The position numbers and the translations under genes were made by a program. Below are positions 56,459-59,021 of a stretch of 64,000 bases of DNA, piece by piece. The notes below the pieces were generated by a model. The model saw only the letters and a list, made by a program, of their open reading frames with translations, had not been told where the DNA came from and did no database searches. The stretch is from Ignavibacteriae bacterium HGW-Ignavibacteriae-1 (GTDB taxonomy: Bacteria; Bacteroidota; Ignavibacteria; Kapaibacteriales; UBA2268). The DNA is taken from the NCBI GenBank assembly GCA_002839825.1, contig PGYU01000003.1:112947-176946 (forward strand), in the 5' to 3' direction. The stretch's first letter is position 1, and each line of letters opens with the position of its first letter.

Positions 56459-56887
56459 CTATTTACTTACAGCGACTATTTCGCTTTCAGGGAAGAAAAA
56501 TCCGATTTCGCGTAAAGCATTTTCATCGGAGTCGCTACCATGAATTGCATTTGCTTCGATTCCTGTCCCAAATCTTGCTCGAATAGTACCGGCTTCAGCT
56601 TTCTTCGGGTCTGTAGCACCGATTAAAGCACGAAATGATTCGACGGCATTGTCTTTTTCTAAGGCAAGTGGCACTATTGTTCCGCTTGTCATATAGTCAA
56701 TTAGTTCGCCATAGAAAGATCTTTCTTTGTGAACAGCGTAAAATTCTCCGGCTACTTCCGGGCTTATTTTTGTAAGTTTCATACCCAAAATCCTGAAACC
56801 TGCTTGTTGGATAGCAGCGATAATTTCGCCACTAACATTTTTAGCGGTTGCATCAGGTTTGATAATTGCTAAAGTTTTATTCGACAT
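56459..56887 (-). CDS. ndk: Nucleoside diphosphate kinase
   Basis: Balances NTP pools. 142 residues from the Met at 56887: KTLAIIKPDATAKNVSG, ARFGTGIEANAIHGSDSDENA with the phosphohistidine in the NAIHGSDS motif. GGAGG lies 5 nt upstream, and the ATG used by the ORF track four codons earlier overlaps that site. Confidence 0.96.
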   Translation of the reverse strand: MSNKTLAIIKPDATAKNVSGEIIAAIQQAGFRILGMKLTKISPEVAGEFYAVHKERSFYGELIDYMTSGTIVPLALEKDNAVESFRALIGATDPKKAEAGTIRARFGTGIEANAIHGSDSDENALREIGFFFPESEIVAVSK

Positions 56888-56964
56888 TACATCCTCCATA
56901 ATTATAATAACACATTACTTTGTTTTTTATCTCAAATCAATTGATTTTTTTTTCAAAAAAATAA

Positions 56965-56988
56965 AAGCGATGTTTAGTAACACCGCTT
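56965..56988 (-). terminator. Rho-independent terminator after the AT-hook frame
   Basis: On the minus strand AAGCGGTGTT / AACATCGCTT (one G-U pair) with a 4-nt loop, followed by TTTTATTTTTTT. It lies 28 bp beyond the stop at 57016, so the transcription unit of sucD includes the whole AT-hook frame. Confidence 0.85.
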
Positions 56989-57015
56989 CTAAAATAAGAC
57001 GATTAATATTCATTT

Positions 57016-57996
57016 CTATTCATTGTTGTTTGCATTTTCATCGCTTGAATCAAACACAATCACATTTTTAGGATTATCCGGAAATTTAACTACAGGCTCC
57101 TCAACCGGTTTTGTGTCAACGGGAGGTTTTGCAGTCGTTACCGTGATGCCTTTTTTGCGTCTGCCTCTCCTACGAGCGATGGCTCTTTCCAAAGGTGTCA
57201 TATTCGCTGTGTCAAGGACTTTCTTTGGTTTTTTAGGTGCTTTTTCTTTTGCTTCTGCTTTGTCAGCCGAAACGGGAGCTACAGTTTTTGCAACTGTACC
57301 TTCATTTTTAAAAGGTCTTCCGCGTTTTTTAGGAGCAGCATCAGTTGCTGCGGGAGCTGCAGCTTTTGCAACGATTTCCTCAGTCTTACGTGGTCTGCCT
57401 TGTTTTCTTTTTGGAGCTTCGCCGGTTGCTACGGGAGCAACAGCTTTTGCAACTGTACTTTCACTTTTGGGTGGTCTGCCTTGTTTTCTCTTTGGAGCTT
57501 CGCCAGAGGCTACGGGAGCAACAGCTTTTGCAACGGCACCTTCATTTTTGAAAGGTCTTCCGCGTTTTTTAGGAGCTGCATCAGTAGTTACCGGAGCGAC
57601 AGTTTTTGCAACGGCTCCTTCATTTTTGAAAGGTCTTCCGCGTTTTTTAGGAGTTGCATCAGTAGTTACCGGAGCGACAGTTTTTGCAACTGCACTTTCA
57701 TTTTTAAATGGTCTCCCCCGCTTTTTAGGAGCTGCATCAGTAGTTACCGGAGCGGCAACTTTTGCAACTGCACTTTCACTTTTGGGCGGTCTTCCTTGCT
57801 TTCTTTTTGGAGCAGCTTCAGTCGCTACGGGAGCGACAGTTTTTGCAACTGCACTTTCATTTTTAAATGGTCTCCCCCGCTTTTTAGGAACTGCATCAGT
57901 AGTTACCGGAGCGGCAACTTTTGCAACTGCACTTTCACTTTTGGGTGGTCTGCCTTGTTTTCTTTTTGGAGCCGCTTCTGTCGCTACAGGAGCCAC
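57016..57996 (-). CDS. AT-hook repeat tail, out of frame with sucD (-1)
   Basis: 326 residues with nine AT-hook-like cores (RKQGRPPK or KKRGRPFK) spaced 26 or 27 residues apart by Ala/Val/Lys linkers ([13 protein letters not shown]), then a 70-residue end with RRRGRRKKG and an acidic tip. The only start is a GTG inside a repeat with no Shine-Dalgarno, and it continues the same repeat that ends sucD in the other frame. It is therefore most likely the rest of a SucD fusion, reached by -1 frameshifting or cut off by a 19-nt deletion, rather than an independent gene. AT-hooks bind the minor groove of AT-rich DNA in HMGA-type proteins. Confidence 0.7.
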
Positions 57997-58118
57997 AGCT
58001 TTTTGGGTGGTCTGCCTTGTCTTCTTTTTGGAGCTTCGCCAGTCGCTACAGGAGCCACTGTTTTTGCAACTGCACTTTCACTTTTGGGTGGTCTGCCTTG
58101 CTTTCTTTTGGGAGTTGA
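57265..58118. repeat. Tandem 78/81-bp repeats coding AT-hooks
   Basis: Eleven hook-coding units, two in the sucD frame and nine in the following frame. Units with KKRGRPFK are 78 bp, those with RKQGRPPK 81 bp. A 159-bp block (one of each) is nearly identical at about 57701-57859 and 57860-58018, showing recent duplication. The long plus-strand ORFs here (for example 57023-58162) are shadows of the repeat. Confidence 0.9.
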
Positions 58119-59021
58119 TGAACCCGATTTCAAAGCGTCGAGTACTGTTTGACCAATTTTAGCAGGTGTTTCAACAACAAATATTCCGGCTTCTCTTAGA
58201 GCTTTGATTTTCTCTTCAGCAGTACCTTTGCCACCTGAAATAATTGCACCTGCATGTCCCATACGTCTTCCGGGAGGTGCAGTTCTACCTGCTATGAAGG
58301 CTATTACAGGCTTTTTCACATATTTCGCAATATATGCAGCGGCTTCTTCTTCCGCCGAGCCGCCGATTTCGCCAATCATTACGATTGCATGAGTGTTAGG
58401 GTCATCGTTAAAATATTTGATTGCATCAATATGTTGAGTTCCGATAATAGGGTCGCCGCCAATTCCAATACAAGTTGATTGACCTAAACCTAAATCAGTT
58501 AACTGCTTTACTGCTTCGTAAGTTAAAGTGCCGGAGCGAGAAACAACGCCGATATTGCCTTTTTTATGAATAAAACCCGGCATTATACCAATTTTTGCTT
58601 CGTCAGGTGTGATTACACCCGGGCAATTCGGTCCGATGAGTATTGAGGTAGAATTGTCCAAGGCATGCTTTACGGGTATCATATCACGAATAGGAATGCC
58701 TTCGGTAATACAAATTATAACCTTAATTTTTGCGCTAATTGCTTCTAAAATCGCATCAGCAGCATAAGGCGGCGGAACAAAAATTACCGAAGTATTTGCA
58801 CCCGTTTTTTTGACGGCTTCACTTACGGAATTGAAAAGTGGCACAGCAGATTTGAACATTATATCGCCTTTGCCGCCATACAACATTCCACCTTTTCCCG
58901 GAGTTACGCCGGCTACGACAGGCGTTCCATACTCAATCATTTGCGAAGTATGAAAAGTACCTTCCGAACCTGTGATGCCCTGTACGAGCAATTTTGTTTG
59001 TTTTCCTACTAAAACACTCAT
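57984..59021 (-). CDS. sucD: Succinyl-CoA synthetase alpha subunit with C-terminal AT-hook extension
   Basis: Substrate-level phosphorylation step between succinyl-CoA and succinate. Residues 1-298 are a complete Suc[25 protein letters not shown] (about 123) and the phosphohistidine loop GHAGAI (about 246) in [13 protein letters not shown]. Normal SucD ends near residue 290. Here the frame goes on for 47 residues with two AT-hook cores (RKQGRPPK and RRQGRPPK) and stops at once after CCC AAA AAG. From that A5G run a -1 shift enters the 326-residue AT-hook frame. sucC is not in the window. Confidence 0.9.

Follow-up and report, generated by a model that had tools for sequence, protein, structure and literature searches.

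The window, a stretch of 64,000 nucleotides from contig PGYU01000003.1 of Ignavibacteriae bacterium HGW-Ignavibacteriae-1, contains the single copy of sucD in this genome. The sucD frame (59021-57984, minus strand) stays open past the normal end of the enzyme, runs through two AT-hook units and then stops, encoding 345 aa. Shifted by -1 relative to it, a second frame of 326 aa (57016-57996, minus strand) carries nine more hooks whose linkers are shared with the hooks of the SucD frame. The original prediction had described both frames, together with a terminator just after the array, and all three were recovered. The features of the locus are:

58131-59021, minus strand: catalytic core of SucD, the alpha subunit of succinyl-CoA synthetase (SCS), covering residues 1-297 and containing the phosphohistidine motif RMGHAGA, with matches to NF004230 and TIGR01019 and an alignment to 1jkj_A
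57987-58130, minus strand: C-terminal tail in the SucD frame, two hooks followed by KLWLL and a stop
57996-58012, minus strand: the junction, reading CACCCAAAAAGCTGTGG on this strand and lacking 19 nt by comparison with the other repeat units
57016-57996, minus strand: -1 frame with nine further AT-hook units of 26-27 aa each and a conserved C-terminal end
57016-57201, minus strand: conserved C-terminal peptide, with a basic helix-forming start and acidic last 45 residues
56962-56991, minus strand: hairpin resembling an intrinsic terminator, after the array (1 found against 0.2 expected)
56459-56899, minus strand: ndk, encoding nucleoside diphosphate kinase, the gene that follows sucD on its strand

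An antisense ORF of 379 aa (57023-58162, plus strand) lies opposite the array and is probably a mirror of its repeats.

The gene is that of the SCS alpha subunit SucD, with a predicted complete catalytic core. The protein scored 454.7 bits with NF004230 (cut-off 336) and 453.9 bits with TIGR01019 (cut-off 353.2), gave an end-to-end alignment with the SCS alpha chain of E. coli (1jkj_A, E-value 3e-110), and contained the PF02629 and PF00549 domains, the CoA-binding domain being present; the RMGHAGA motif is invariant in the SucD alignment. Its partner SucC is encoded by one ATP-grasp_2 gene on another contig of the same genome, as an open frame of normal length (415 aa) that has no basic tail.

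We compared the locus with those of the two other genomes of the genus (G001 and G002), whose SucD cores are 97-98% identical to that of the window. In G001, SucD, 11 hooks and the conserved end form a single open frame of 683 codons; in G002, SucD, 7 hooks and the same end form one of 578 codons. The sucD C-termini of relatives had been proposed as a check on the prediction, and both congeners carry hook arrays in frame. Such an architecture, intact in two congeners, is a pattern far beyond chance and, because SucD, array and conserved end are uninterrupted in both, comparison of these sequences indicates that the fusion is real. A separate AT-hook gene merely abutting sucD could be rejected, since the fusion is in frame in both congeners; in addition, no further hook array turned up in the window's genome when SucD with its hooks served as the query. 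The first option of the original prediction, a TCA-cycle enzyme with an HMGA-like tail, thus holds for the lineage. The last 61 residues are 93-95% identical between the window and both congeners, and between the three species of the genus this terminal peptide is under purifying selection (dN/dS 0.05-0.11, with dS 0.4-0.5). Within the arrays, synonymous differences per site are about two- to threefold above amino acid differences, and the array units of the window (pS 0.329, pN 0.122) bear out the claim that the downstream frame has not decayed. An intact fusion is also found in a public record (L045, JAGXRP010000002.1), possibly the G001 assembly itself. This record is titled Desulfobulbaceae bacterium CROMO_A_116, a title that is probably wrong, as its SucD is 97% identical to that of the window and carries a similar hook array.

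The GRP core between basic residues recurs in 11 units in the window, both frames included, in 11 units in G001 and in 7 in G002. The AT-hooks announced by the prediction are present, but not with an RGRP core throughout: the residue before GRP varies, some units of the window reading KKRGRP and others, about half, KQGRP, while KPGRP is found in most G001 units. The PF02178 AT_hook profile scored 23.6 bits on the downstream frame (cut-off 17.4). In the whole-genome family search, the same profile yielded the C26 protein alone, below the cut-off, and it was absent from the families listed for the congeners, so this short model is unreliable here. In the AlphaFold model of the G002 protein, the core is mostly confident and matches solved SCS alpha chains, and the tail is predicted to be disordered, with pLDDT below 50 except for a helix at residues 513-522 in the conserved end. 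A disordered multi-hook region is thus followed by an acidic segment (5 K/R against 8 D/E in the last 45 residues after the array), an architecture like that of HMGA.

The window copy itself carries either a recent mutation of the strain, a deletion that breaks the frame, or a fault of assembly; this was the third option of the original prediction. The repeat unit at the junction measures 62 nt, whereas the others have 78 or 81 nt, and is 19 nt short of an 81-nt unit, exactly the number predicted to be missing; the flanking microhomology, given as AAAA, shrinks to AAA (3 nt) on a strict count. Because the flanks share just these 3 nt, De Bruijn collapse is an unlikely source of the gap. Constraint on the downstream frame, together with its lack of decay, implies that the break is recent or not real. 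As assembled, the copy would yield a 345-aa SucD with two hooks and, if the mutation is real, this product is still a basic-tailed enzyme, its tail (46 aa by the boundary of our tail survey, net charge +10) being of about the usual size and charge for the family. The second option, programmed -1 frameshifting giving a short and a long SucD in the window's species, fares poorly. The A5G run coincides exactly with the frame change, and the -1 frame has stayed open without decay, but C AAA AAG does not follow the canonical X XXY YYZ heptamer pattern, the zero-frame codons CCC AAA AAG imply that a slip would mispair the first tRNA, and the 73 nt downstream fold as RNA no better than shuffled sequences (z = +0.52). 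Moreover, exactly one 19-nt piece of repeat is absent and neither congener has a frame change at the site. Lacking a canonical site, a downstream stimulatory structure and conservation in relatives, programmed frameshifting was rejected as highly improbable.

To place the array in context, we surveyed SucD in the class to which the window belongs (Ignavibacteria/Kapabacteria type), taking 84 proteins, 42 from the window's order and 42 from further class members, and scoring as a basic tail a net charge of at least +4 beyond the SucD core. Such a tail was found in 77 of them (38/42 in the order and 39/42 in the further members), in none of seven SucD sampled from the phylum's other classes, and in none of the Chlorobia, Nitrospira, Bacillota and others sampled in a set of named records. 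The median tail of the class has 34 residues and a net charge of +13. Outside the genus, tails contain about 31% Lys, 19% Ala and 8% Pro, with 3% Asp plus Glu, and most of them lack GRP and resemble histone H1 or AlgP; that of G361, made of AKPAAKK repeats, is almost AlgP-like. Charge density does not follow GC content across its range of 28-63% (rho -0.06, p 0.61), so the tail is not simply a product of A-rich DNA, which points to selection on charge. The seven class members without a tail, in which no hidden tail was found in another frame either, indicate that the tail is not essential for the enzyme. In the genus g44 (L125, L127), the SucD of G252 has an 87-residue hook tail and that of G267 has no tail, with no remnant in other frames, so that the two lend themselves to a comparison of both states. 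The SucD core tree does not resolve the tail to one origin, Chlorobia and other tail-less groups falling among the tailed ones with weak support.

GRP cores also occur outside the genus, in G051 (KRGRGRPKG, KRERGRPKG and KRPPGRPKG), G252, G006 and G032. These four tails, out of 74, contain 7 cores against 0.5 expected, a number reached in 0 of 2,000 tail shuffles, and the hook label requires 5 changes on the SucD core tree, which suggests that AT-hooks appeared at five separate places on it. The hook array of the window's genus is one form of a polybasic SucD tail that extends across the class.

We largely rejected the idea that basic tails are common to the whole proteome. Of the 338 ORFs that we sampled in three genomes, no more than 3 reached a net charge of +9 over their last 25 residues. 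Two of the three are SucD, which has the most basic C-terminus in both sampled relatives (92 and 99 ORFs), with few comparable ORFs. A RimK/R2K-type ATP-grasp enzyme, assigned through a weak family match (L195:10570-11670; G000:C26:46603-47667), ends in an AT-hook, KKRGRPRKES, that is conserved in three congeners; some relatives in the order have short Lys-rich tails instead. This protein may be a second enzyme with a DNA-binding tail, so that SucD is exceptional but not alone.

What could such a tail do? We favor, with modest confidence, a DNA tether that would hold SucCD on the nucleoid without altering its chemistry; DNA binding, localization and benefit are all things that we infer. In the window's genus, a disordered, positively charged SucD tail would have grown into an array of AT-hooks that resembles HMGA and has a conserved end. 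With several hooks, each alpha subunit would hold SucCD on AT-rich nucleoid DNA and leave its reaction unchanged, and turnover of ATP/GTP and succinyl-CoA would occur near the chromosome, with NDK encoded next door. This is the best supported reading because AT-hooks repeatedly replaced H1-like tails, both of which bind DNA in known proteins; DNA binding is known for the hooks of CarD, for AlgP and for the AT-hook family (PMC4374960, PMC9239181, PMC11354804). The intact fusions in the congeners, the purifying selection, the presence of the tail across the class and its absence from the other groups sampled, the over-representation of GRP and the low pLDDT predicted for the tail all argue for it, as do the independence of charge density from GC, the five changes of the hook label, the rarity of comparable C-termini in other ORFs, the normal length of SucC, the match of the core to solved structures and the AT-hook at the end of a second enzyme. 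Against it, the Q or P before GRP in many hooks of the genus should weaken minor-groove binding, the Lys/Ala-rich tails of most relatives could equally bind RNA, ribosomes, polyphosphate or acidic proteins, and neither the tail-less class members nor the tree speak for a tail acquired once and kept throughout.

The main rival is a general polyanion anchor, because AlgP, which has the same composition as the Lys/Ala/Pro-rich tails that make up most of our sample, is found on polyphosphate granules as well as being DNA-binding (PMC9239181). The tail would then place SucCD on polyphosphate granules, RNA or ribosomes, AT-hooks being merely one basic sequence among others, and the AKPAAKK repeats of G361, so close to the KPAA repeats of AlgP, fit this well. 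However, GRP cores exceed the shuffled expectation and occur in several lineages, and mere charge does not call for an array of 11 hooks, so we consider this explanation unlikely, if the most serious of the alternatives. A functionless, near-neutral extension produced by slippage in low-complexity sequence would account for the rapid change in hook number (about 11, 11 and 7), for the tail-less members and for the broken copy in the window, which shows that the array can be lost; the constraint on the terminal peptide, the similar charge density at all GC contents with almost no acidic residues, and the recurrence of the tail in 77 of 84 proteins make it very doubtful. Only slightly less doubtful is a role in docking to another protein, for which NDK is the likeliest candidate. 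In most of the class, ndk comes directly after sucD, at a median distance of about 45 nt, an order seen in none of the outgroups sampled, and NME/NDPK has been reported to act on the same histidine motif of SCS and to form a complex with SCS in mitochondria (PMC7461546). In the window, the two genes lie on the same strand (56459-59021) with the terminator-like hairpin between them. Yet several families of the class have tails but no ndk in the 0.7-1 kb fetched downstream, five tail-less genomes (G026, G267, G196, G263 and G204) retain ndk, and the tail sequence lacks the conservation expected of a docking motif. As tail and ndk linkage separate in both directions, the tail is not only a dock for NDK.

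Extending the DNA tether from the genus to the whole class calls for more caution. We tentatively propose, as a possibility that we hold with less than even confidence, a nucleoid-bound SCS throughout the class, in which the alpha subunit would double as an H1/HMGA-like chromosome-associated protein and tie a step of the TCA cycle, and the supply of NTP or succinyl-CoA, to chromatin. A DNA-binding tail on a central metabolic enzyme across a class would physically join the TCA cycle to the chromosome. If true, nucleoid-bound SCS would be a bacterial counterpart of the metabolic enzymes recruited to eukaryotic chromatin, and the tailed SucD would make the reason for the presence of such enzymes at chromatin testable in a simple system.

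In the open-licence papers that we searched, no SucD tail of this kind is described; a single signature indel of SucD turned up, reported for the related Chlorobiales and located in the core (residues 31-87). The protein shares its full catalytic core and phosphohistidine motif with known SucD (TIGR01019, NF004230; E. coli 1jkj), but these end at about residue 290-300, whereas here they are followed by some 10 to 380 residues of a tail that is basic and disordered. By analogy, the tail may work like that of HMGA or H1, although we do not claim membership of these families. Eukaryotic HMGA likewise has several GRP-core hooks between basic residues, is disordered and ends in an acidic C-terminal segment, but it has no enzyme domain, while the hooks described here are fused to an enzyme and about half of them have Q or P before GRP (PMC11354804). 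Myxococcus xanthus CarD is similar in that unfolded, HMGA-like C-terminal RGRP AT-hooks are joined to a folded domain; there the folded part is an RNA polymerase-binding regulator and the acidic segment precedes the hooks, whereas here the folded part is a TCA-cycle enzyme and the acidic end follows them (PMC4374960). The H1-like tails of Pseudomonas AlgP and PhaF, which are thought to connect granules with the nucleoid, are Lys/Ala/Pro-rich and disordered like those of most SucD relatives but, unlike them, are not fused to a central metabolic enzyme (PMC9239181).
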